A DNA stretch of 64,000 nt from Thermosporothrix hazakensis. Lineage in GTDB: Bacteria; Chloroflexota; Ktedonobacteria; Ktedonobacterales; Ktedonobacteraceae. Numbering within the stretch: the first letter of the stretch is position 1; each line of letters opens with the position of its first letter. Under the pieces are notes generated by a model, which saw nothing but the letters and a program-made list of their open reading frames with translations, was not told the origin of the DNA and made no database searches. The position numbers and the translations under genes are program-made. Positions 10,501-64,000 of this stretch are shown one piece after another. Location of the stretch: the NCBI RefSeq assembly GCF_003253565.1, contig NZ_QKUF01000004.1, positions 186,001-250,000 on the forward strand. Direction: 5' to 3'.

Positions 10501-11199
10501 ATGAGAGAGGTTCAGCTACCTGCAACCGTGCTTGTTGTAGACGATGATATTGCCATCGGCCAGCTTCTTAAGGACTTCCTGAAGGCCGAAGGGTTTCATG
10601 TGCTGGTGGCAACAGACGCGGACAAAGCGCTTGCCATGCTGCACCAGGAGCCGATTGATTGCATGATCCTTGATGTGATGATGCCCGGGCGTTCTGGCTT
10701 CGATCTCTGTCGCCAGATCCGCGAAACAAGCGACCTGCCTATTCTTTTTCTCAGCGCGTATGACAGCGATCGCGAGAAGCTCCGGGGATTTGGCCTGAAA
10801 GGGGATGACTATATCTCAAAATCGGCCTCTCCTGGTGAGATTGTGGCCCGCGTCAAGGCAGTGCTCAGGCGCAGCCAGAGGGAACAGCCAACCACCAGAG
10901 TGCTCGATTTTGGTCGTCTCGTGATCGATCTGACCGCCCATGAAGTGCGTGTGGCAGGTCGCCCGGTTCCTTTTACGACTCGCGAATTCGCGCTACTCAG
11001 TCTGCTCGCGGAACACCCGCGTCAGGTCTTTACGCGTGAGCAGCTCTTTGAACGCTTCTGGGGTGATATCGGCGACCGGCAAACGGTTACGGTCCATATT
11101 CGGCGCATTCGGGAAAAGATCGAGGAGAACCCGGCGGAACCACACCATATCATCACTGTGCGTGGCGTCGGCTACCGCTTCGAGGGGGAGAAAGAATGA
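10501..11199 (+). CDS. OmpR/PhoB-family response regulator
   Basis: A 232-residue two-domain regulator. The receiver domain has acidic residues in VVDDDIA, the phosphoacceptor in MILDVMMPG and the conserved lysine in DDYISKSASP. The C-terminal winged helix (FTTREFALLSLLAEHPRQVFTREQL, VTVHIRRIREKIEENP, VRGVGYRF) is a normal OmpR effector domain. ATG at 10501 has GGGGGA seven bases upstream; an earlier ATG at 10474 lacks a ribosome site. It overlaps its kinase by ATGA and faces the ABC exporter operon, its likely target. Confidence 0.93.
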   Translation: MREVQLPATVLVVDDDIAIGQLLKDFLKAEGFHVLVATDADKALAMLHQEPIDCMILDVMMPGRSGFDLCRQIRETSDLPILFLSAYDSDREKLRGFGLKGDDYISKSASPGEIVARVKAVLRRSQREQPTTRVLDFGRLVIDLTAHEVRVAGRPVPFTTREFALLSLLAEHPRQVFTREQLFERFWGDIGDRQTVTVHIRRIREKIEENPAEPHHIITVRGVGYRFEGEKE

Positions 11200-18740: not shown

Positions 18741-20105
18741 CTACGAACTTAACAGCAGCGTTCCCTGTGTCTGTTCCAGAAAATGCTGTACTATGGGTTC
18801 TGACGGAAAAAGTGTTACCAGTATCTGCTGGTATTCTTTAAAGCGCTGATAGAGCATCGTAGAAGCCGCATTATCAAGCAGCGTGACAGATCGCTCCGCG
18901 ATCCGCAGGCTTGCTTCCAGCTCATGTGTCCGGGCGTAGGCCTCGGCAAGCGGCATCATCGTCAACAGGCAGCGCATAATCCAGACCGGTGAGACCTGCG
19001 TTAGCGAACGTTCCAGATAGCGAATGGCCTCTGCGGGGTTGTCCAGCGACAGACTACAGCTTCCCGCGATCTGGTACCAGCGTGCCTGGTCGTACTCTTC
19101 GTTCGGCTTAAGGCGCTCGGTGATCGCAGCGGAGGCGGCCAGTTTCTCGCGGGTCTCCTCTCTGCGATGCAAGCGAGCAGCATTATACGCCCAATCGGCA
19201 AGGAGATGGGCCTTTAAGCGTACATATCTTTCGTCTTCTTCTCCATTTGACCTGATGAGCAGGTGCAGGGCAGCCTGGATATACTGAAGGGCGTCGGCAT
19301 GATTGCCGCTGGCATTGGCGACCACCGCCAGCCAATTCAAACTCTGGGCCATATTCCAGATATCGGACCCCTCAAGCGCCGCCACATGCGCCTTCATATG
19401 AGATTGATGAGCCTGACAATAGCGTCCTTGATAAAGGTACGCAGCCCCTTGTAGATTGTAGAGTGCCGCATACAGGCTTCCGCGCTGCTGCTCTGGAAGC
19501 AGCTCATGCGTTTGTTGGAGCAGCGTCAGGAGCGCCTGCGCCACCATAAACGTGTGATCCGGACGCACCTGATGCGAAAGCTGCCAGGCAACCGAAACAC
19601 TCTCACTCAGCGTTTGACAGAGCTGAATACGCTCCTTCATACTCACATGCGTCCGCCCGACAAGTGCCACCTTCTGAGCAAGTTGTGCACTATCGCCATG
19701 CAGCAACGCTCGGCGCACCTCTTCAGGCAGCGCCTGCACGCTCTGAAGAATGATCTGCAACACGTCAAGCAGCGCGTGCGGCTTCCACCCTTCATCAAGC
19801 AAGGAGGCTAACGCATATGCAGTCTGGATGAACTGTGTATCGGTTGTCTGCTCGCTTGGTTGCTGCTCTCCGGTGGGCAGCTTCGGTGAAGACTCCTCGG
19901 CCTCGATCAGACCGAGTTCGCGCGATGTCTTCCCGAAATAGCTACAGAGACGCCGCCGCGACTCCGCATTAATCGGGTACTGATGCTCAGCACGCCAGAT
20001 TGTTGCCGCTCCTACTCTGGCTTCATTAGCCAGTTGTTCAATGGTTAGATTGTGTTGATTGCGCAGAATACGAAGGGGGTGCGTCCTTGCTGCCGTCTTC
20101 TTCAT
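18741..20105 (-). CDS. XRE-type regulator with TPR-like C-terminal domain
   Basis: A 454-residue protein. The N-terminal helix-turn-helix (LRILRNQHNLTIEQLANEARVGAATIWRAEHQYPINAESRRRLCSYFG) binds DNA. Residues from about 75 to the end are alpha-helical with repeats rich in Leu/Ala pairs (for example LNWLAVVANASGNHADALQYIQAALHL, WYQIAGSCSLSLDNPAEAIRYLERSL), as in TPR-containing regulators. AAAGGAGG is eight bases before ATG. It is divergent from the GH5 cellulase and may regulate the GH5-GH6 unit. Target and ligand are unknown. Confidence 0.85.
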   Translation of the reverse strand: MKKTAARTHPLRILRNQHNLTIEQLANEARVGAATIWRAEHQYPINAESRRRLCSYFGKTSRELGLIEAEESSPKLPTGEQQPSEQTTDTQFIQTAYALASLLDEGWKPHALLDVLQIILQSVQALPEEVRRALLHGDSAQLAQKVALVGRTHVSMKERIQLCQTLSESVSVAWQLSHQVRPDHTFMVAQALLTLLQQTHELLPEQQRGSLYAALYNLQGAAYLYQGRYCQAHQSHMKAHVAALEGSDIWNMAQSLNWLAVVANASGNHADALQYIQAALHLLIRSNGEEDERYVRLKAHLLADWAYNAARLHRREETREKLAASAAITERLKPNEEYDQARWYQIAGSCSLSLDNPAEAIRYLERSLTQVSPVWIMRCLLTMMPLAEAYARTHELEASLRIAERSVTLLDNAASTMLYQRFKEYQQILVTLFPSEPIVQHFLEQTQGTLLLSS

Positions 20106-51919: not shown

Positions 51920-52792
51920 TCACTTGATTTCAGCGATCGCCACACCGCTATCAATGTACCGCTGCCCTATCGCGTAAAGCAGCACCGGAACCGCCAGCGC
52001 AATGACCGTCGCGGCCATCATCTGCGGATACACCGAGGTGTACCCATCGGTGAAGTAGAGCAAACCAAGCGGGATCGTTCGGTTATTCTGGCTGCTCAAA
52101 TAAATCAGCGGGTTCCAGGCATCACGCCAGCTCGCCAGAAACGAGAAGATCGCCACCACAATGATGACCGGTTTCGACTGCGGCAGGATGATATTCCACC
52201 AGATCCGCAGGTTGCTACAGCCATCGATTCGCGCCGCCTCGTCAAGCTCCTTCGGCAATTCCATAAAGAACTGACGGAACAGAAAGATGTTAAAGGCCGA
52301 ACCAAAAAGCTGCGGCACGATGATCGGCCAGAAGGTATCAATCCATTTCAGGTTGCGAAAAATCACGTACAACGGAATGGTTAATACCTGTGATGGCAGC
52401 ATCAGCGTCGACAACATCAGGATAAACCAGAGCGTGCGCCCGGGAAAACGAAAGCGGGCGAAGCCAAAAGCAACCAGCGATGACGAAAGCGTATTGACGA
52501 CCATCGCATAGATCGCTAACAGAACGCTGTTCAACACATAGCGCCCGAAGTTGTATCTGGTAAAGGCCTCGACATAGTTCGACCAGACAAACGGCTGCGG
52601 AATCCACTGAATCGGCACGGCATAATATTGCGTCTGGTTTTTCAACGAGGCAGAAAGCAGCCAGATAAACGGCAGCAGAATACAGAATGCCACCACCACC
52701 AGGATGATATAGGTCAGAATGATACTGAGGCGCTGCAACGTGCGCCCCCGCTGATACAGCGCATGCCGTGTCGTCTCTGCCTGTGAGCTCAT
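51920..52792 (-). CDS. CUT1 ABC permease, CebG/MalG-like
   Basis: A 290-residue permease with about six helices. The EAA loop is LDEAARIDGCSNLRIWWNIILPQSKPVIIV. VAFCILLPFIWLLSASLKNQTQYYAVPIQWIPQPFVWSNY is the typical N-terminal part of this subunit. AAGGAGG precedes ATG. It is the last gene of a LacI-SBP-permease-permease array next to GH48, which suggests uptake of cello-oligosaccharides. Confidence 0.92.
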   Translation of the reverse strand: MSSQAETTRHALYQRGRTLQRLSIILTYIILVVVAFCILLPFIWLLSASLKNQTQYYAVPIQWIPQPFVWSNYVEAFTRYNFGRYVLNSVLLAIYAMVVNTLSSSLVAFGFARFRFPGRTLWFILMLSTLMLPSQVLTIPLYVIFRNLKWIDTFWPIIVPQLFGSAFNIFLFRQFFMELPKELDEAARIDGCSNLRIWWNIILPQSKPVIIVVAIFSFLASWRDAWNPLIYLSSQNNRTIPLGLLYFTDGYTSVYPQMMAATVIALAVPVLLYAIGQRYIDSGVAIAEIK

Positions 52793-52806: not shown

Positions 52807-53808
52807 CTACCAGCGATCAGTATTGCCCGAACGCCGGAAGATCAACAGCACAACGATAGTCAGCACAAGCGTTATCAGGAAGATCACAACAGCCAGAGCC
52901 GAGCCATAACCATAGTTTCGGGAGACGAACGCCTGCTGATACAGGTAGGTCAGGAACGTCGAGAGGCTGTTATGATAGCCCAACACGCTTCCCAGGCCGC
53001 TTACACCGACAGAGCCAGAACCACCACCGGCAAAAATCAGCGCCGTATCGAAGACCTGAATATGGCCGATCAGCGTCATAATTGTGTTAAAGAGAATGAC
53101 GGGCGTTAATAGCGGCAGGGTAATATAGCGGAAGCGATGCCAGGCCCCCGCGCCGTCAATACGAGCCGCCTCGTAATAGGTCTGCGAAATTCCCTTCAGA
53201 CCCGCAATGAAGATCAACATCGTACCGCCCACAAACCAGAAGTTGACGAAAATGAGCGCCACAAGCCCGATCTCGGGATTATTATAGTTGTTGAGCCAGT
53301 TCACCGGAGCAATACCGAAAAGCCCCAGAATCGTATTGAACAGCCCGTACTCGCCCGCATTGAAGACCTGCACAAACATCGAACCAATCGCGACCCCGAC
53401 CATCAGGCTTGGTAGATATAGCACGGTCCGAAAAAAGTGGTTTCCGGGAAAGGCCCGGCTGAGCAGCAGCGCCAACGCAAGCCCTCCCACGATATAGATG
53501 ACTGTCGAGGCAGTCACATACAGCAACATATGCCAGCATGTTGCGGCGAAGACAGGATCATGAAACAGCAATTGCTCGTAGTTCTGAAACCCGATCCATT
53601 GCGGCTTGCCAAACAATTTGTAGCGAGTAAAGCTGTTATAGATCGTGTTCAGCAGCGGATACAGGTAAAAGAGTAAGAAGCCAATAATCCAGGGAGAGAT
53701 GAAGAGATAGCCAGCGACAGCCTCCCTTCCAAAAAAGCGCTTCCTGGTTTGCTTCGAGCGCTTCGCTTTGAGAGCAACCGCATCCCTGGCATGCTCGGTT
53801 ATCGCCAT
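52807..53808 (-). CDS. CUT1 ABC permease, CebF/MalF-like
   Basis: A 333-residue permease with about six helices after a basic N-terminus (KAKRSKQTRKRFFGREAVAGYLFISPWIIGFLLFYLYPL). The EAA-type loop is YEAARIDGAGAWHRFRYITLPLLTPVILF. AAAGGAG precedes ATG. It is separated from the downstream permease by 14 bp and from the binding protein by 57 bp. As in the maltodextrin locus, no ATPase gene is nearby. Confidence 0.92.
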   Translation of the reverse strand: MAITEHARDAVALKAKRSKQTRKRFFGREAVAGYLFISPWIIGFLLFYLYPLLNTIYNSFTRYKLFGKPQWIGFQNYEQLLFHDPVFAATCWHMLLYVTASTVIYIVGGLALALLLSRAFPGNHFFRTVLYLPSLMVGVAIGSMFVQVFNAGEYGLFNTILGLFGIAPVNWLNNYNNPEIGLVALIFVNFWFVGGTMLIFIAGLKGISQTYYEAARIDGAGAWHRFRYITLPLLTPVILFNTIMTLIGHIQVFDTALIFAGGGSGSVGVSGLGSVLGYHNSLSTFLTYLYQQAFVSRNYGYGSALAVVIFLITLVLTIVVLLIFRRSGNTDRW

Positions 53809-53865: not shown

Positions 53866-55185
53866 TTATGAGGCCGAAGAGAGGGCCGCATTTCCCTTTT
53901 GCTCCATCTGTTGCGCAGCCTGTTCAGGAGAAAGCTTTCCACTCGCCAGATCAGGTAAGATATTCGTGTACTCATCGAGGAGCTTCTGATGAGGAGTCAT
54001 GACGATTGGCTTGAAATATTTCGCGGCCTCCGTCAGCGTGGGAACATACTGCTTCGGTGTCAAGTAGTCGGACATCTGATTGAAGGCGGTGACGTTTGTT
54101 GGCACATCGCTCAATTTGGCGTAGGTCTTGTTCGGCTCTGTCTGCGTCACCCATTTGATGAACTCCCAGGCCTCGTTGACGTGCTGGCTCCCCTGATAGA
54201 TACCGAAGCTATTGGCATTTCCTAATGTCACCTGTTTGCCATTGATCCCAAAGATTGGCGTTGCTCCGATCTTGTCCTGTAGCTTCTGCTGCTCGATCTG
54301 GGCAAAGGTAAAAGCACCGACACGCGCAAAAGCGACCTTTTCCGTCAGCAGGCTATCAATATCACCTGTGCCCCAGGGACCATTCACCTGTTCAGTAAAG
54401 GGGACAGCCAGGTGCTCCGTATAGAGGCTCTGCCAATCTGCCAGGCCCTTTATCCCCTGAGGAGAGTTGAGCAACAGCTTCTTCGGATTCACCGGGTTGT
54501 CATAGACCTGCCCGCCCTCTAATTCGATAAGCATAGTCCAGAGCGGGTCAAGATTGTTGATGTTGATGGCGTATTGCGTATATTTCCCGTTCTCTTGCTT
54601 GACAAGCTTCTTCGCAATCGCTTTAAATTCATCAAAGCTCATCGGTTTCACAGGATCAGGGAAGGGGACACCGGCCTTTTTCAGCAGGTCTTTGTTATAC
54701 CCGAGCAGTGGAACATACATCCCCACAGGCAAGGTGAACTGTTTACCGTTCCAGCTACAAAGACTCATCGCCTCAGGTTTGAGCGCCTTCACCACATCCT
54801 GATAGCCCGGGAGCGTGCTCAGATCATACAGGGCTTCCTGTTCATAGTAGGGAGCTGCCTGGCTGCCTGCCATGCCAATAATATCATAGGCGTTGCCACC
54901 GGCTACCGTGGTCTGAAGTTTGCTCCAATAGTTGCCCCAGGGAAGGATCTCCGCTTTGATCTTGATGTTGGGATGCGTCTTCTCGAACTCCTTGATCCAG
55001 GCAAGCATAGCGTTGTCTTTGACCGGTCCATTACTCCACCAACCATACGTCAAAGTGACCGACTCACCACCAGATGACGAGTCATCCGAGCCACAAGCAG
55101 CAAGCACTGAACCGGCAACGCTCATACTGAGTGCCGCTTTACCACTGTTCATGAGGAAACGTCGTCGTGACATCGAAAATACCAT
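53866..55185 (-). CDS. ABC solute-binding protein, probable Tat-exported lipoprotein
   Basis: A 439-residue CUT1 binding protein, CebE-like by context. The N-terminus has a twin-arginine-type motif (SMSRRRFLMNSG), a hydrophobic core and a lipobox, VLAAC-GSD. This indicates folded export by Tat followed by lipid anchoring. Binding-protein features are VTLTYGWWSNGPVKDNAMLAWIKEFEKTHPNIKIK and EAWEFIKWVTQTEPNK. AAGGAG is ten bases before ATG at 55185. The ligand is probably a cello- or manno-oligosaccharide, from the neighbouring GH48 and GH5 genes; this is inference. Confidence 0.88.
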   Translation of the reverse strand: MVFSMSRRRFLMNSGKAALSMSVAGSVLAACGSDDSSSGGESVTLTYGWWSNGPVKDNAMLAWIKEFEKTHPNIKIKAEILPWGNYWSKLQTTVAGGNAYDIIGMAGSQAAPYYEQEALYDLSTLPGYQDVVKALKPEAMSLCSWNGKQFTLPVGMYVPLLGYNKDLLKKAGVPFPDPVKPMSFDEFKAIAKKLVKQENGKYTQYAININNLDPLWTMLIELEGGQVYDNPVNPKKLLLNSPQGIKGLADWQSLYTEHLAVPFTEQVNGPWGTGDIDSLLTEKVAFARVGAFTFAQIEQQKLQDKIGATPIFGINGKQVTLGNANSFGIYQGSQHVNEAWEFIKWVTQTEPNKTYAKLSDVPTNVTAFNQMSDYLTPKQYVPTLTEAAKYFKPIVMTPHQKLLDEYTNILPDLASGKLSPEQAAQQMEQKGNAALSSAS

Positions 55186-55257: not shown

Positions 55258-56334
55258 TTATTGCTTACAGGAACGTACAGAGTCACGCTTGACAAGCTTT
55301 ACCGCTACAATGCAGGTAATGGCTGTCATGTTCGGTTCCATACTTCGATCTTGAAGCCGCCTCACAGCAACATTGCCCATCGCCTCCTTATCGATATGGA
55401 CGGTTGTCAGCGCCGGGGTCAGATGCTCCACCATGTCGATATCATCGAACCCAATCAATGAAACATCTTCGGGAACACGCAGCCCGGCCTCGCGCAAGGC
55501 CTTCATTGCCCCGATCGCGACATTGTCATTTGCTCCGAAGAGGGCGGTAAAGTGCACCCCTCGCTCAAGCAAGCGCTTGCAGGCAGCATAGGCGCTATCG
55601 GGGTGAAGCTCGCTCTCCTCAAAAAGCGCATAATCAACAGGAATCCCGGCATCCAGGAGGGCCGCACGATAGCCCGCCGCGCGCCGTTCCAGCGTATAGA
55701 TTCGGTTTCTGGGTCGGGGCCCGGGAAGCACAGGGCCACCAATAAAGGCAATCTCTTTGTGCCCCTCCTCTATCAAATACTCAACAGCAGCCCGAGCTCC
55801 CTCGAAGTTATCGCACAGGACCGAATCAACCGAAATGCCTGTCACATGGTTATCTACCAGGACCAGCGGAATATTCAGGCGCTGGATCTGCTGAACGGTC
55901 TCCGGCTCGGCAGGGCCAACCAGCAGGATTCCACCGAGCTTCATCTTGCTGATCGTCTCAAGTAGCGCGTCGGGATCGGAAGTCAGTTCTCCGATTGCTC
56001 GATAGGTTACTTTCATGTTGAGCTGCCGCGCCGTGTTCTCCACGCCATCGAGAATATGTGACCAGAAGGGATTATTCGTTGCCGCATTGGTATCAAGATA
56101 GGAGCAATACAGAAAGCCGATCTCCTTCAAAGCGCTACTGTCCCCACGGCCTGCGCCCCGCTGACTAACGGCGCGTGTATAGCCGAGTCGTGCCGCTGCA
56201 CGCAAGACGCGCTCGCGAATCTCATCGGTTACATTGCTGTGGTTATTGAACACCCTTGAGACCGTTCCTACCGATACATCAGCCTCACGTGCGATATCTT
56301 TCACTGTCACAGAGCTGCCTGCTTTTTGTTTCAT
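55258..56334 (-). CDS. LacI-family transcriptional regulator
   Basis: A 358-residue repressor. The N-terminal DNA-binding domain is VTVKDIAREADVSVGTVSRVFNNHSNVTDEIRERVLRAAARLGY, with the hinge following. The C-terminal sugar-binding domain has GILLVGPAEPE, ALFGANDNVAIGAMKALREAGLRVPEDVSLIGFDD and TTVHIDKEAMG. It lies between the importer and the GH48 gene, all on the same strand. A pair of TTTCATTGAAA palindromes just upstream of its start, and again in the GH5/GH74 promoter region, are probable binding sites. The inducer is likely an oligosaccharide such as cellobiose, as for CebR/CelR. Confidence 0.92.
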   Translation of the reverse strand: MKQKAGSSVTVKDIAREADVSVGTVSRVFNNHSNVTDEIRERVLRAAARLGYTRAVSQRGAGRGDSSALKEIGFLYCSYLDTNAATNNPFWSHILDGVENTARQLNMKVTYRAIGELTSDPDALLETISKMKLGGILLVGPAEPETVQQIQRLNIPLVLVDNHVTGISVDSVLCDNFEGARAAVEYLIEEGHKEIAFIGGPVLPGPRPRNRIYTLERRAAGYRAALLDAGIPVDYALFEESELHPDSAYAACKRLLERGVHFTALFGANDNVAIGAMKALREAGLRVPEDVSLIGFDDIDMVEHLTPALTTVHIDKEAMGNVAVRRLQDRSMEPNMTAITCIVAVKLVKRDSVRSCKQ

Positions 56335-56357: not shown

Positions 56358-56389
56358 TTTCAATGAAATTCATCATTGTTTCATTGAAA
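56358..56389. promoter_or_regulatory. Paired LacI operator candidates before the LacI gene
   Basis: TTTCAATGAAA (56358-56368) and TTTCATTGAAA (56379-56389) have centres 21 bp apart, two helical turns. They lie 24-55 bp upstream of the LacI start. Confidence 0.75.
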
Positions 56390-56665: not shown

Positions 56666-59125
56666 TCATGAAGTGCTACAAGGAGAACCATTCAAAGTGA
56701 ACGAGGTTGGAGGTGTATTCGTGCCGCTCCACGAGCCATTAAAGCCCGGATTCACCGAAGCTCCCGGCGCGATGGAGCCGTTATAGCTTTCATTGGTAAC
56801 GGTCACCTCCTTCCCGCTCTGCGAGAATTTGGCGTTCCACCCCTGCTGCACCTTCTGATCTCCCGGGAAACTGAACTCGAGCGTCCAGCCATTAATAGCC
56901 GTCTTCCCGGTGTTCGTAATGGTGATCGAGGCTGTAAAGCCGCCCGGCCACTGATTCGACACGGAATAGTTCACCTTACAGACAGCGCTCGGTGGCGTTG
57001 TCGGTGTCGGCGTCACGGTCGTGGTTGGCGACGGCGTGACCGTGCTTGTAGGAGTCGTGGTCGGCGTTGTGGTAGGGGTGTTTGTTGGTGTCGGCGTTGT
57101 GTTATCGCCAAAGAGCAGCGCCACATCTGCCATCGCCATCGCGATATCAGCCTGCGCCCAGAAGCGATGATAGGTAAAGGTCGGGGCCGCACCACCATCC
57201 AGATAGGCCTGCACCTTCGGCCAATCGGGATCCTGCTTATAATGCGGGCGCTGCGAGATGAAGGTCAGAGACGAATCCAGCGTCGCCCCCTGAGCGTTCT
57301 TGCCCGTCCAACCGCTCGGGATATACACGGGGTCATCAAAGCGGTTGTAATCGGCGCGCACTTCAGGATTGGAGACACCTTTTGGATCCGCATAGCTGGT
57401 CCACATTCGATCAAGTAACTGCTGTGCGAGCGTGCGCGAGGCGGTATCATTCGCTTTTGCCGCGTAGAAGAGCAGCGTACGAGCAAGCGCAGCCGTCACT
57501 CCAACATCGGACGTCGTATCAACCACCGAGACGTGAAGATTGGCGTTCTGTCCGGGATTCGCAGCATTCCAGGTATCGGGCTGACCGGTCCATTTGAGCG
57601 TTGAGGGGATCGCATAGGAGCCGTCAGCATTGAGCTTTGTCACCGACTTCACCCAGGCAACCCACTTGTCCAGAATCGCCTTTGCCTGCGCGTCACCGGT
57701 CACATAGTAGTATTCTGCCACACGTTCAAGCGACCAGGCCTGGAAACCAAACCAGTTGTTGCTTGGAGGATCATGATAGACAGGCTGCCAGTCATACGCC
57801 ATACCATAGAACGTCGGCGTTCCGGCGGGCGGTGTGGCATAGTGGCCATCCCAGCTATTGCTTGCTCCACCTGCGATCGCGCCTTCGCTGGATTGCAGCC
57901 AGCGATAAAACTCAAGCTGGCGCTTCAGGCTGGTCGACCAGTCGGTAGCAGCGGTGGGTGAAAGCGGCTTCAATGCCTGCACGTTACTCAGCGCCCACGC
58001 GGCAAGCGGGTTCTGGTAGCCCTGATGGGCTGTACTGGATCCAATACGCCACGCCCAGTTTCCGGCAGAAGGCAGCGAGCCACCCCAGGCATAATACCAG
58101 CCAAGCAGGTAGGTAGAGCTATTTTTCCCGCTTCCAGCCGGACAGCTCACGCTCTGACAGCCCAATGTCTTGAAGTATTTGTCGTAGGTCGCATAGCGCA
58201 GGAAATCGCCCATTTTTGCAGCTTTTGCGATTGTAGAAGCAACCGCGCTGCCTTTACCCTGACTGTTTGCCCAGGTGTACGCCCAGTAAGCAGCCTGGAT
58301 AGCACGAGCGTCGGCATCAGGAGCATCGGTATAGCGCCACTGTTGCGCGTAGCTGCCGCCAGAAGCCGGTTTATTGAAGAGGCTCAGGAAACCATGCCCG
58401 TCGTTGCCACCCCAGGTAAAGGTTTCACAGGAAGGGTGCACAACCGTTTCCCAGACAGATTCCGATGCGCCACGCTGATACGAGTTGACATAGGAAGGGG
58501 TCGTCTTGCCATCACCACAGCGCCCATAGCCATACCAGTTATCAACATCAAGCAACCAGGCCATACCATAGACGTCGGCGTTCCCATACGTCTGCTTCAG
58601 TTCATTGCCGATGGGGTCCTGACCGACCGAAACCTGTGAATCCAGTTGTACCGGGTAGTCGCTGATCTCGGGCGACTCCGGCCCATATTGTGCGGGACTG
58701 CTGGCGTTGTAGCCGCCATTGGTTGGCTGATCCTGAGTGGAGGGAATGATATATTTCTCCATTGTCGCCCAGGCGTTGTTAAAGGGCTGCCAGTCACCTG
58801 TGACCCTGCCATAAACCGCCTCAAGCCAGATCCAGAAGCTAAACGCCTCTGAGGTGGTCTCATGCCCGTAGTCAGGGGCCTCGACGATGAGCGTTTCAAC
58901 GGAGTGATAGGGAATACCCTGGGGGCTGAAGTAGCCGTTGGCCGGATCTTTCAACTTCTTGTAGAGCGTCAGAAAGCGCTCGGTATATTGAGAAGTATCA
59001 TCGGCCAGAGGAGCCGCCTGCACCGGTCGAACGTGCCAGTAGGAGATACTGAAGCTGCCGGAAACAAGCAATAGACCGGCTATCACCATCATGGTCACAC
59101 TGTGAATGATCTTTCGCGAGATCAT
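56666..59125 (-). CDS. Secreted GH48 cellulase with CBM2
   Basis: An 819-residue processive cellulase acting from reducing ends. Signal peptide about 1-37 (VQAAP). The GH48 domain covers about 45-680: [28 protein letters not shown] contains the glutamates of the catalytic-acid region, and [29 protein letters not shown] and [17 protein letters not shown] are typical. [17 protein letters not shown] linker leads to a C-terminal CBM2 ([19 protein letters not shown] ... NGSPCSTS). AAGGAGG precedes ATG. GH48 enzymes act with GH6 and GH9 or GH5 partners; a GH6 and two GH5 are in this window. The 302-bp divergent gap to the XRE gene holds no clear TTTCATTGAAA site. Confidence 0.95.
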
Positions 59126-59427
59126 TCCGAACCTCCTTGTTATGCAACTGTACTGCCAACGAGCGTCCAGTACCCGTCACCTCTGTTCTTGCTGTGCCTG
59201 TGACCATTACAAAATCATCTTCCAGTTACACTTCTTTTTCCCCCACTTTCTTTATGGATAGTGAAATTCGACTCAGGTTATGCTATGATTGGAATACTGC
59301 TGTAAGGACAATTATAGCCATTTCCTTTTTGCAGATGCAACGACACTTTCTCGACAGACATTGAACAGCTAGAGGACAGACAAGGATGTCTGGACAATTC
59401 TTGCCTGATCTCAGGAGGAACGTGCAC

Positions 59428-60405
59428 ATGACGACGCCGAATCACCGCTTGAAGCGAGCGCGTGAACTACGAGGGTGGTCACAGGCAAAGGTTGCTCGGC
59501 TCATCGGTACAGATGCCGCAACGGTCAGCCGTTGGGAACGAGGACTTTTTTCACCAACCCCCTACTTTCGCGAGAAGCTCTGCGAGCTCTTTCAAACCAA
59601 CGCCGATGCTCTTGGCCTGCTCGGCAACTCTCTTGAAGAGCCGCCACCACTGCCAGAACAGCAGGATCTCTTTGCCTCGATGCTCAAACGTGCGGAAAGT
59701 GCACATCATGCCCATGCCCTCTGGCAATACGCCTATGTGCAGGCGCTCCGCGGGCAGCATGAGGACGCGCGAGAACTGGGTGAAATGAGCCTGAATACCT
59801 TTGAGCAGCTTGGCAACACCGAGAACGCGCAAACAGTACGAGCATGGCTACAGACGCTTCCCCCCGCACCGCCATCTCCTCCATCATCTTCAAAAAGGCG
59901 CTCTACAGGCTGGCTCAAAGGTGGCGGTTTGCTGCTGCTCCTGCTCTGTCTCGGAGGAGTGCTGTTGTTCTCTCTCATCGCGAAACAGGGCGATGCTTTC
60001 GGTAAACAAATAGTCTCTACACCTTTAGAAAGCACACCCACAGCAACAATCACAGCCGTCAAAGCACAAGCCAATAACAGTATATCTTCAACGCCTGCGC
60101 TTCCAAAGGCGCTTATCTTACCCCAGACACTTACACCCGGAGCCTGTGAACCTGATTCAATTGGCTATCGCTGCACGCTCAATCTTCAGTGGAACACACC
60201 ATCACCAGTTCAATTCCAGTGGGTGATTGACTCTTGCGATTTCGGTGCCCGCCTGAATCCCACACAAGGCACAGGCACAACCGGCCAGCCAGTTCAGGTC
60301 ATCGTGTATATTCCCTACTCGCAACAGCATGGCTCGATGCATTTCACGTTTACGCAGGGCACCAACAGCACGACAGCAGAAGTTCTCTGGCGGGGAGAGC
60401 AATAA
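59428..60405 (+). CDS. Membrane-anchored XRE-type regulator
   Basis: A 325-residue protein. Residues 4-65 are an XRE helix-turn-helix (NHRLKRARELRGWSQAKVARLIGTDAATVSRWERGLFSP). Residues about 80-145 are helical and resemble one TPR-like pair. After a Pro/Ser linker and KRRS, a single hydrophobic helix (about 165-185, GGGLLLLLLCLGGVLLFSLIA) spans the membrane, followed by about 140 outside residues with two or three cysteines and beta-type sequence (CEPDSIGYRCTLNLQWNTPSPVQFQWVIDSCDFG, in parts). AGGAGG is nine bases before ATG at 59428; the upstream in-frame ATG at 59386 is weaker. It lies divergent from GH48 and convergent with the GH5 mannanase. Confidence 0.8.
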   Translation: MTTPNHRLKRARELRGWSQAKVARLIGTDAATVSRWERGLFSPTPYFREKLCELFQTNADALGLLGNSLEEPPPLPEQQDLFASMLKRAESAHHAHALWQYAYVQALRGQHEDARELGEMSLNTFEQLGNTENAQTVRAWLQTLPPAPPSPPSSSKRRSTGWLKGGGLLLLLLCLGGVLLFSLIAKQGDAFGKQIVSTPLESTPTATITAVKAQANNSISSTPALPKALILPQTLTPGACEPDSIGYRCTLNLQWNTPSPVQFQWVIDSCDFGARLNPTQGTGTTGQPVQVIVYIPYSQQHGSMHFTFTQGTNSTTAEVLWRGEQ

Positions 60406-60458: not shown

Positions 60459-62054
60459 TTACTGGCAAACGGTGCCATTCAACGTAAAGGTTGCAGGAAC
60501 AGGGTTACTCCCCTTCCAGGAGCCATTGAAGCCGATTTCAACCGAACCAGAAGGCGCAATCGTCCCGTTCCATGAAGCATTGGTAACGGTGACGTTTGCG
60601 CCACTCTGTGACCAGGTCGCCGACCATCCCTGCTGCACCTTCTGGCCTGCCGCGAAGCTGAAAGCAAGGGTCCATCCATTGATGGTGCTTGAGCCATTGT
60701 TTGTGATCTTGATTTTCCCGGTAAAGCCGTCCGGCCACTGGCTCTCAATCGTATAGCGCACGCTACAGGTTGCGCCAGGAGTCGGCGTGATGGTCGGGGA
60801 AACTGTTGGCGTGATGCCAGGGGTCGGCGTTGCGTTAATGGGCACATTCTTGGCCTGCTGGTTCGCCGAGTGCTGACGGAATACGGCCAGTTCGGGAGCA
60901 CCTTTCGAGACCCCGTAGGTGCTGTCTACATTCGTCGCCTGATACCACCAGAAAGCCGAGCCGGCCACGTCAAGACGCTCCAATTCCCCGTAAATCTCGC
61001 GCCACCACGTCGAGCGATCCACTCCCTTGACGTTGAACTCGCCCATGAAGAAGGGCTTTCCAATCACGTTATGCGAATCATTCACCCAGGCATCGATCAA
61101 CTGTTTGGTCTGATCAAGGCTGAGATGTGCCCATTCCTCGGTAGGATAGGGGTGAGCGGACGTGAAGTCAATAAAGGGCGATTGTTGCAGGTAGACAAAG
61201 GGATTCCCTTCATCCCCGCCGAAGCCATACTTCGCCTGATGCCCTTCAATCCCGGTTCCGACCATATGGTGAGAATCGATGCTCTTGATGTACGACGCCA
61301 TCTCATCTACCCAGGCGCGCAGCGTGGTTCCAGTTGAGTTCTCGTTTGGTGTAGCGTTCTGATAGCGCGGCTCATTCATCAGCTCCCAGGCAAAAATAGT
61401 CGGCTCATCTTTATACGCCACGCCGCTATAGTGATTGACGCGATTCAGCACATAGTGCACGTAGTTCTTATACTGCGTGAAGCAGCCGGGGCATTTGGTC
61501 TTATTGAAGAACATCCAGCGGTTCGCATCGCCCGTGGGTAGCCCCTCCCATTGTAGACGCGTATCAATACCGCCGTAGGCCGTCCAGTAGTTTTCCAGCG
61601 TGGGCAGCAAGCGGATATTATGCGCCTTCGCGGATTGAATGATGTAGTCAAACAGGGCAAACTCGGCCTCGTTATAGACGCCTTTTGACGGCTCGAAACC
61701 ATGCCACGTCTCATGACTGAACATCCAGAGGCGCAACACGGAAACACCGTCACTTTGCAGTGCGGCCATATGGGCGTCTATTTTCGCCTTGTCCATATAC
61801 TTATTCTCGATATCATCAGGTGTTGAAGAGCTGCTTCCATCTCCGTAGGTGAACACGTCGTAGGTGTTGGCGCCCGCAAAGTAGAAGTAGCGATCACCCA
61901 GGCAGAAGTGTGTACCACAGCGGTACACAAAATTTTCCGCTGCGTGAGCTGTTTTCTGTTGCGACGACAAGACGGTCAGGCCAGTCAGGAAGGTCATTCC
62001 TGTAAGCATCACAAAGAGCATGCATCGTGCTACTGGTTTGAAGAATCCTTTCAT
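60459..62054 (-). CDS. Secreted GH5 mannanase-type enzyme with CBM2
   Basis: A 531-residue glycoside hydrolase. Signal peptide about 1-38 (AHAAE). The GH5 domain, about 40-410, resembles the mannanase subfamily (GH5_7): YFAGANTYDVF, SVLRLWMFSHETWHGFEPSKGVYNE, acid/base E228 (FAWELMNEPR) and nucleophile E339 (FFMGEFNV). Several cysteines (C46, C51, C188, C191) may form disulfides. A TPTPGITPTVSPTITPTPG linker precedes a CBM2 (CSVRYTIESQWPDGFTGKI ... NGTVCQ). It would cut beta-mannan or glucomannan. AAAGGATGAG lies upstream of ATG. The promoter region is shared with GH74 and holds the putative LacI sites. Confidence 0.9.
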   Translation of the reverse strand: MKGFFKPVARCMLFVMLTGMTFLTGLTVLSSQQKTAHAAENFVYRCGTHFCLGDRYFYFAGANTYDVFTYGDGSSSSTPDDIENKYMDKAKIDAHMAALQSDGVSVLRLWMFSHETWHGFEPSKGVYNEAEFALFDYIIQSAKAHNIRLLPTLENYWTAYGGIDTRLQWEGLPTGDANRWMFFNKTKCPGCFTQYKNYVHYVLNRVNHYSGVAYKDEPTIFAWELMNEPRYQNATPNENSTGTTLRAWVDEMASYIKSIDSHHMVGTGIEGHQAKYGFGGDEGNPFVYLQQSPFIDFTSAHPYPTEEWAHLSLDQTKQLIDAWVNDSHNVIGKPFFMGEFNVKGVDRSTWWREIYGELERLDVAGSAFWWYQATNVDSTYGVSKGAPELAVFRQHSANQQAKNVPINATPTPGITPTVSPTITPTPGATCSVRYTIESQWPDGFTGKIKITNNGSSTINGWTLAFSFAAGQKVQQGWSATWSQSGANVTVTNASWNGTIAPSGSVEIGFNGSWKGSNPVPATFTLNGTVCQ

Positions 62055-62150: not shown

Positions 62151-62183
62151 TTTCATTGAATAATTACCTTAATTTCATTGAAA
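62151..62183. promoter_or_regulatory. Paired LacI operator candidates before GH5 mannanase
   Basis: TTTCATTGAAT (62151-62161) and TTTCATTGAAA (62173-62183) with centres 22 bp apart. This matches the arrangement before the LacI gene. They lie about 100 bp upstream of the GH5 start and 270-300 bp from GH74. Confidence 0.75.
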
Positions 62184-62403: not shown

Positions 62404-62422
62404 GAGTGACATGATGTCACTC
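62404..62422. promoter_or_regulatory. 19-bp palindrome in the GH74 leader
   Basis: GAGTGACATGATGTCACTC has perfect 9-bp arms around a central G. It ends 32 bp before the GH74 start, so it may be an operator downstream of the promoter or an RNA hairpin. No second copy was seen in the window. Confidence 0.6.
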
Positions 62423-62454
62423 GCTTCATTGCAGGTTGTGAAGGAGTGCGTTCC

Positions 62455-64000
62455 ATGACGGATTTTGCAGGCAGGAGCAGAAGGAACCTCCTGATGCTAT
62501 CCCTTGCGCTTCTGATTGTGCCCATCCTCTTTATCAGGCCCGCTCCTGAAGCCCGTGCAGCCTCCCAGTCCTATAGCTGGAAGCAGGTTGTAACCGGTGG
62601 TGGAGGCGGTTTTGTCGTCAATGTGCTCTTCAATCAGAAAGAGAAAGATCTTCTGTACGCCCGCACCGATATCGGGGGCGCGTATCGGTGGGACCCGGCA
62701 ACTGGAAGCTGGACGCAGCTACTGGCGTGGGTTGGTCCCGATCAGTGGAATATGGCTGGCGTTGAGAGCATCGCAACCGACCCTGTAGATCCCAACCGGC
62801 TCTACATCGCCGCCGGAACGTATACCAACTCATGGACCGATCAAAACGGTGTCATCTTGCGTTCGACCGATCGAGGCAAAACATTTCAGCAGACGCCGCT
62901 TCCCTTCAAGCTCGGCGGGAACATGCCCGGACGCGGCATGGGCGAGCGTCTGGCGATTGATCCAAACAAGAATTCCATTCTCTATCTTGGTACACGCAGC
63001 GGTCACGGCCTGTGGAAAAGTACCGACTCGGGCGTGACCTGGAGCCAGGTAAGCAATTTTCCCAATACAGGCCCCTTCGTCGATACGCCCGGTGATCCCT
63101 ATCTGGGGGACGAGGTCGGTGTTGTCTGGGTAACGTTTGATCCCGCGAGCAGCACGCCCGGCAACCCCACACAAACAATCTATGTCGGTGTGGCCGATAA
63201 TCGGAGCGGCGCCACCAATATTTATCGTACAACCGATGCTGGCAAGACCTGGGAAGCGGTCCCGGGGCAGCCAACCTGTAACGTCAGCGGCACAAAGGTG
63301 ACCTGTACTGGTGGTGCGACCTGGGACACCTCCACCAACGCGACAACGGGCTATCTGCCACATCAGGGAAAGCTTGACGCTCAGGGCACGCTCTACATCA
63401 CCTACAGCGACTGGGAAGGCCCATACAACGGTAGCCATGGCGATGTCTGGAAATTTGAGCCCAAAACCGCGACATGGACCAAAATCAGTCCGGTTCCCGG
63501 CTCCGATACCTCCAATAACTACTTCGGCTATGGCGGGCTGGCGGTGGATATGCAGCATCCGGGAACGCTGGTCGTGGCAAGCGTCAACTCGTGGTGGCCT
63601 GACGCACAGTTATTCCGCACGACCGACGGCGGCAAAACCTGGGCCCCTATCTGGGAATGGGCCAGCTATCCGAGCCGCTCTCTGCACTATACCATTGACA
63701 TCTCAGACGCTCCCTGGCTTCATTTTGGCAACACGAACCCCGTTGATCCTGTGCCTGCTGTCAAGCTTGGCTGGATGATTGAGGGCATGAATATTGACCC
63801 CTTCAACTCAGACCGTCTGATGTACGGAACCGGCGCGACACTCTATGGCACAACCAATCTGACGGCCTGGGACACGGGTGGCAAAGTAGCGATCAAAACG
63901 ATGGCCCGGGGCATCGAGGAGACCAGCGTCTCCGGCCTGATCAGCCCGCCGGCCAACGCGCATCTCTATAGTGTTGTTGCCGATGTGAGTGGCTGGCGTC
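62455..64000 (+). CDS. Secreted GH74 xyloglucanase, cut by the window end
   Basis: The first 515 codons of a GH74 beta-propeller enzyme. Signal peptide about 1-40 (ARA-ASQSY). Family marks are WKQVVTGGGGGFV, LYARTDIGGAYRWD (first catalytic Asp), GYLPHQGKLD, GPYNGSHGDVWKF, LGWMIEGMNIDPFNSDRLMYGTGATLYGT and GIEETSVSGL. The final residues, SVVADVSGWR, match the region of the second catalytic Asp. The enzyme cuts xyloglucan inside the chain. GAAGGAG is eight bases before ATG. The C-terminus, and any CBM, lie beyond the window. It is divergent from the GH5 mannanase. Confidence 0.92.
   Translation, partial: MTDFAGRSRRNLLMLSLALLIVPILFIRPAPEARAASQSYSWKQVVTGGGGGFVVNVLFNQKEKDLLYARTDIGGAYRWDPATGSWTQLLAWVGPDQWNMAGVESIATDPVDPNRLYIAAGTYTNSWTDQNGVILRSTDRGKTFQQTPLPFKLGGNMPGRGMGERLAIDPNKNSILYLGTRSGHGLWKSTDSGVTWSQVSNFPNTGPFVDTPGDPYLGDEVGVVWVTFDPASSTPGNPTQTIYVGVADNRSGATNIYRTTDAGKTWEAVPGQPTCNVSGTKVTCTGGATWDTSTNATTGYLPHQGKLDAQGTLYITYSDWEGPYNGSHGDVWKFEPKTATWTKISPVPGSDTSNNYFGYGGLAVDMQHPGTLVVASVNSWWPDAQLFRTTDGGKTWAPIWEWASYPSRSLHYTIDISDAPWLHFGNTNPVDPVPAVKLGWMIEGMNIDPFNSDRLMYGTGATLYGTTNLTAWDTGGKVAIKTMARGIEETSVSGLISPPANAHLYSVVADVSGWR

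Follow-up and report, generated by a model that had tools for sequence, protein, structure and literature searches.

Among regulators anchored in the bacterial membrane, CadC and ToxR bear winged-helix heads. RsgI, an anti-sigma factor, binds sugar through its outer modules, proteins of the CelR/CebR type are LacI repressors of cellulolytic actinobacteria, and in RodZ an inside HTH is followed by one membrane helix and an outside beta domain. A survey of transmembrane transcription regulators (TTRs) found 50,302 of them, helix-turn-helix heads and the single-pass form being the commonest (Demey et al. 2023, PMC10269533). Two membrane-embedded DNA-binding regulators of Vibrio cholerae, ChiS and TfoS, serve the chitin programme (PMC11856585), and in Clostridium thermocellum the SigI/RsgI systems exert membrane-based control of cellulases in response to extracellular polysaccharide (PMC4711584). 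RodZ spans the membrane as a member of the Rod complex (PMC6946637). In the literature searched we found no description of the sensing of insoluble substrate by aerobic cellulose-degrading Chloroflexota, and no paper on the membrane-anchored XRE regulator family presented below.

The regulator gene lies in a stretch of 64,000 nucleotides of Thermosporothrix hazakensis DNA, here called the window, taken from a draft genome of 7.28 Mb with an estimated contamination of 10%. We lean towards the view, with confidence somewhat beyond an even balance, that its product is a single-pass transmembrane regulator which helps to set the expression of the adjacent extracellular cellulase genes. The gene and its parts are the following.

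59413..59418, plus strand: ribosome-binding site AGGAGG, upstream of the regulator start at 59428
59428..60405, plus strand: coding sequence of the membrane-anchored XRE regulator, 325 aa; the open reading frame opens at 59386
59449..59607, plus strand: XRE helix-turn-helix head (HTH_3, Pfam), with the recognition-helix region TDAATVSRWERG nearly invariant
59668..59853, plus strand: TPR-like helical segment, three predicted helices
59920..59982, plus strand: single transmembrane helix (hydropathy and model), basic residues on its N-terminal side
59983..60105, plus strand: Ser/Thr/Pro-rich linker outside the membrane, low-confidence (disordered) in the model
60106..60393, plus strand: outer domain of about 95 aa, predicted MSP/ASH/PapD-like Ig fold, absent from Pfam
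60145-60147 and 60172-60174, plus strand: codons of the invariant outer-domain cysteines (alignment of 10 outer domains)

The longest open reading frame at the locus spans 59386-60405 (plus strand, 339 aa). The start at 59428, chosen in the original prediction, is nevertheless the better one, because all 12 homologues examined keep an ATG at the aligned position, with GGAGG or AGGAGG upstream at normal spacing, and the start methionine is invariant in the homologue alignment A1.

Most of the architecture that had been read from the letters withstood closer analysis and is conserved across genera, DNA binding being its predicted part. Both HTH_3 (E 7.7e-11, 42.3 bits against a cut-off of 23) and HTH_31 (E 2.3e-10) match the head above the Pfam cut-off, in agreement with the proposed XRE domain, and the canonical recognition helix is retained. 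By sequence, the whole protein gave weak HTH matches only in the PDB. In the AlphaFold model of the whole regulator (13 sequences, mean pLDDT 73) the head forms four helices. The TPR-like segment was borne out as three confident helices (aa 95-156 of the open reading frame, block pLDDT mostly 86-95), but by sequence it stays below the Pfam cut-off (TPR_12 E 0.01); it is missing from the Ktedonobacter homologues in A1. A PlcR-type identity within the RRNPP XRE-TPR proteins, which bind a peptide through several TPR repeats, was rejected, there being only three helices and a weak fold match to PlcR (3u3w, TMq 0.18). The single membrane helix, also foreseen, is predicted both by hydropathy (2.73 across 19 residues) and by the model (helix 180-198), and is conserved in homologues. 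Since the 15 residues before it contain four K/R and no D/E, and those after it one K/R and two D/E, the positive-inside rule places the head inside the cell.

As predicted from its sequence, the protein unites a DNA-binding domain (HTH_3) with a membrane region; this pairing defines a TTR (PMC10269533) and is what it shares with that class. In Pfam the head's matches are confined to HTH families without a wing, XRE-type ones among them, and include no Trans_reg_C winged helix, so that the regulator differs from CadC and ToxR in its XRE head as well as in its TPR-like segment, Ig-like outer domain and link to cellulases. The order of parts is the same as in RodZ, and one might therefore suppose a RodZ-like scaffold, with an XRE-type fold inside, one helix, a beta domain outside and no DNA binding. 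This we regard as improbable: HTH_25 reaches 11.7 bits, below its cut-off of 24.6, while HTH_3 is clear, the recognition helix is of the canonical kind, and Pfam detects no RodZ C-terminal domain in the protein or in 10 outer domains. The HTH family as judged by score, the outer domain and the gene context all differ from those of RodZ, and a gene linked to cellulases and present in 6 of the 13 genera of one family is not a core shape gene.

The external part had been described as a cysteine-containing domain, and this is what was found: an all-beta domain (about aa 242-336 of the open reading frame, pLDDT about 85; pLDDT 84.7 and pTM 0.74 when modelled separately) in which two cysteines, C254 and C263 of the open reading frame (C240 and C249 from the true start), are invariant among 10 aligned outer domains, the remaining one, C270 in the latter numbering, being outside the conserved columns. 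It matches no Pfam family and, by sequence alone, nothing in the PDB. A Foldseek search of the PDB returned MSP, ASH and PapD-like Ig domains at the top (TM normalised by query length about 0.6-0.74, E near 1e-4). Neither Pfam nor the fold search recognised a known sugar-binding module. The idea that the domain senses a polymer or an oligosaccharide is therefore not indicated; the predicted fold resembles protein-interaction domains of the MSP/ASH/PapD type, the domain recurs on further membrane proteins, including kinases, and we infer from the model that protein interaction is a likelier function than sugar binding. Nor does Pfam or the fold search reveal the features of RsgI, an anti-sigma domain and a carbohydrate-binding outer module; the regulator has a predicted DNA-binding head, and it may be compared with RsgI in function, with no kinship claimed.

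The outer-domain family constitutes an Ig-like module, found in Ktedonobacteria, for which Pfam has no entry. Further members are found in protein kinases of the membrane and, as tandem copies, in membrane proteins with a zinc ribbon (L102-L106, L107, L109, L100, L097). Because related domains sit on kinases, zinc-ribbon proteins and others, it may be viewed as a generic outer module of Ktedonobacteraceae.

Full-length homologues of the regulator were found in 13 of 400 Chloroflexota genomes, in six genera that all belong to Ktedonobacteraceae, where they occur in 13 of 29 genomes and 6 of 13 genera. Outside this family, no full-length homologue appeared in the class or in the 400 Chloroflexota genomes at E 1e-45. 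The searches used single proteins and profiles, and the relatives' genomes are partly metagenome bins. Thermogemmatispora and Ktedonobacter are among the carriers; their contigs were matched by a profile made from the alignment, the single-protein contig scan giving no match. Between genera the head keeps 77-88% identity, given overall as 82%, whereas the outer domain keeps 28-45%, a pattern that a fixed DNA target and a drifting sensor would produce.

The position between a GH48 and a GH5 gene, on which the original prediction relied, is right, with the qualification that the GH5 neighbour is better called mannanase-like, because its best PDB matches are solved GH5 endo-mannanases (E 1.3e-42). 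The neighbourhood is as follows.

SBP 53866-55185, permeases 52807-53808 and 51920-52792: ABC sugar importer (permeases read from the sequence)
55258..56334, minus strand: LacI-family regulator, beside the ABC sugar importer
56666..59125, minus strand: GH48-CBM2 cellulase (Pfam), divergent from the regulator
60459..62054, minus strand: GH5 mannanase-like enzyme with CBM2 (Pfam, PDB), convergent with the regulator
62446..64000, plus strand: GH74-like beta-propeller enzyme running beyond the window end; its full homologues have CBM2

The GH74 label of the last gene is our interpretation, Pfam giving BNR/sortilin repeats only. Elsewhere in the window there are genes for LPMO10-CBM2, GH5-CBM3 and GH6-CBM2.

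In 12 of the 13 carrier genomes the regulator adjoins cellulase genes, and the partners vary by genus: GH74/GH9/GH48, GH48, GH6 or GH5. The six Thermogemmatispora genomes have GH48, a propeller protein, GH9-CBM3-CBM2, the regulator and GH74-CBM2 in that order, with the G024 contig ending after the regulator and GH9. The regulator follows GH6-CBM2 in three Ktedonobacter genomes and GH5-CBM2 in G001, and in G010 a second XRE gene separates it from GH48, which is 2.4 kb away. The sole unlinked carrier is G013, with no cellulase within about 8 kb; near that homologue lies a gene for a fused trehalose-phosphatase/GH65 phosphorylase-type protein (L052:2155-5388). Homologues standing always beside unrelated genes, which had been named as evidence that would count against the prediction, were thus looked for, and 12 of 13 stand beside cellulases.

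Could this linkage be accidental, the gene having simply been carried along in regions rich in enzymes? Among the CBM2 matches listed, a CBM2 domain lies within 5 kb of the regulator in 11 of 13 cases (the twelfth adjoins GH9 at a contig end), a count that is the same at 10 kb, whereas none of the 46 further close XRE genes has a CBM2 gene at 10 kb or less, a difference with a Fisher p of 3e-10; the chance of linkage in five of six genera would be about 1e-9 if the genera were independent. These values overstate independence, since species and linkages share ancestry, and this, together with the unlinked G013 homologue, is what can be said for such an origin. However, the partner genes change between genera while the regulator stays, an arrangement that passive inheritance by itself would hardly produce, and we consider an accidental association very improbable indeed. 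Twelve of the 13 carriers possess GH48, as do 2 of the 16 family genomes without the regulator (Fisher 2e-5), although at the level of genera the association is weak (p 0.10); the two GH48-bearing genomes without the regulator are G005 and G019. Within the close group G014-G017, the only genome devoid of the regulator, that of Ktedonospora formicarum (G014), is also devoid of GH48. Because the gene has been kept beside cellulase genes through large rearrangements, the regulator is probably a part of the cellulose programme, acting as a membrane-bound switch.

How such a switch would reach its targets is a separate problem, and the promoter regions of the window contain the following elements.

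56358..56389, no strand: two TTTCAnTGAAA palindromes forming a pair directly before the LacI gene, a candidate rival operator
59126..59427, no strand: divergent GH48/regulator intergenic region, 302 bp, with neither of the candidate operators found
62151..62183, no strand: a second pair of TTTCAnTGAAA palindromes, in the promoter region between the divergent GH5 and GH74 genes

A site for the XRE head was sought by dyad counts over 12 promoter regions, by palindromic and free EM motifs in six regulator upstream regions and by pairwise 14-mers across genera, and none of these revealed anything common to the genera above shuffled controls; within single genera, too, no operator for the head came to light. 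An 18-bp element, GCATATTGTRTCTGATGC, is common only to the regulator upstream regions of G010 and G013. Of the original suggestion, the linkage to cellulases is real, and control of these particular genes would be a further step: no operator common to the six genera was found, and the clear operators at these promoters are LacI-type in Thermogemmatispora, while those of the window have a LacI gene as the nearest candidate owner.

The clearest of them is a tandem 12-bp operator, a head-to-tail repeat of GTAACCGNTTAC with CG every 6 bp, present in G025, G021, G016, G001, G000 and others (L147-L165). In Thermogemmatispora it occurs (GTAACCGATTAC-GGAACCGTTTAC) both before GH48 and between the regulator and GH74, L054 having eight matches against 0.6 expected (sites 10535-10559 and 1201-1225). 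A scan of nine genomes located it also in front of GH6 (Thermogemmatispora), of GH48 (Ktedonobacter robiniae) and, immediately, of the G001 regulator, and it precedes an orthologous LacI gene in G000 (C9, about 78993-80096), G010, G013, G016 and G019. That LacI protein is the likely binder, because its own gene would then be autoregulated. As the XRE head's own site the tandem GTAACCGNTTAC was ruled out, being found also before the orthologous LacI and absent from the window. Tandem operators at cellulase and LacI promoters across several Ktedonobacteraceae genera are, as far as their sequences tell, a conserved cellulose regulon, to which in Thermogemmatispora and G001 the regulator gene itself seems to belong under LacI control. 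An operator of this type at its promoter also speaks for the regulator having a part in the cellulose programme.

These observations permit another explanation, in which LacI repressors run the cellulases and the membrane regulator is a regulon member with targets elsewhere, in attachment, envelope or secretion, its place in the cluster being due to co-expression and not to any command over it. The tandem operators at the regulator/GH74, GH48, GH6, G001 regulator and LacI promoters already offer a route to cellulase control. Moreover, the region upstream of GH74 in Thermogemmatispora has kept a perfect palindrome of 26 bp, TGGTATCGCTCCCGGGAGCGATACCA, which contains, in five genomes of that genus, the perfect palindrome TATCGCTCCCGGGAGCGATA (L054:10731-10750) with CG every 6 bp. 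The two paired TTTCAnTGAAA sites of the window, 21-22 bp apart, have no further exact paired counterpart in the 7.28 Mb of the genome, and both belong to the cellulase cluster; LacI is the nearest candidate owner, the XRE protein being another possibility. Still, the lack of the tandem operator in the window and the candidate status of the owner of the paired sites weaken this explanation, and it leaves unaccounted for why an extra membrane regulator was retained through rearrangement. We judge it unlikely, yet a serious contender. Cellulase control is common to CelR/CebR and these loci, where LacI genes and operators occur, but CelR and CebR are soluble and the regulator is membrane-anchored; the CebR box is at chance level in the window (5 matches against 4.2 expected). 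Just before the GH74-like start there is also a near-perfect 19-bp inverted repeat, GAGTGACATGATGTCACTC (62404-62422), unique in the window with 0 expected by shuffles, a candidate operator or mRNA hairpin.

Returning to a regulator that itself contributes to cellulase expression, one plausible course of events can be proposed. The XRE head would stay inside on DNA, the TPR-like helical segment would probably serve dimerisation or coupling, and the Ig-like outer domain would be the input, answering an event at the cell surface. Judged by the fold of this domain, a protein or envelope partner would be a likelier input than a sugar polymer. The output would most likely be an influence on adjacent cellulase expression; DNA binding, target genes, direction of control and signal are all presumptive here. 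A more ambitious form, offered tentatively and with considerable doubt, is that an undescribed Ktedonobacteraceae family reads a surface event (for example a bound enzyme, an envelope partner or cellulose contact) via the MSP/ASH-like domain and directly switches the adjacent cellulases, with LacI repression by soluble sugars as a further layer.

Retention beside GH48, GH74, GH9, GH6 and GH5 genes in five genera makes the regulator a concrete and testable sensor candidate, and two of these genera, Thermogemmatispora and Ktedonobacter, have cultured species. It would be for cellulose what the transmembrane regulators responding to chitin are in Vibrio, and would give engineers of polymer sensors a simple component. 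ChiS and TfoS would resemble it as membrane-embedded DNA-binding regulators serving a polysaccharide programme, in an unrelated bacterium and on another substrate; the comparison is one of function, and no kinship is claimed.

A second cellulase-linked XRE family is represented in the window by a soluble XRE-TPR regulator of 454 aa (18741-20105, minus strand), divergent from the GH5-CBM3 cellulase gene; a homologue adjoins GH48/GH5 genes in G019 (L140:12285-13673, 42%), and another lies between the membrane regulator and GH48 in G010 (L059:1676-2716, 38%). The same genome as the window also encodes a 353-aa protein with an XRE domain and one membrane helix (L010:1483-2544, G000:C6), whose different outer part is weakly similar to the 3-keto-disaccharide hydrolase family (E 0.0045).
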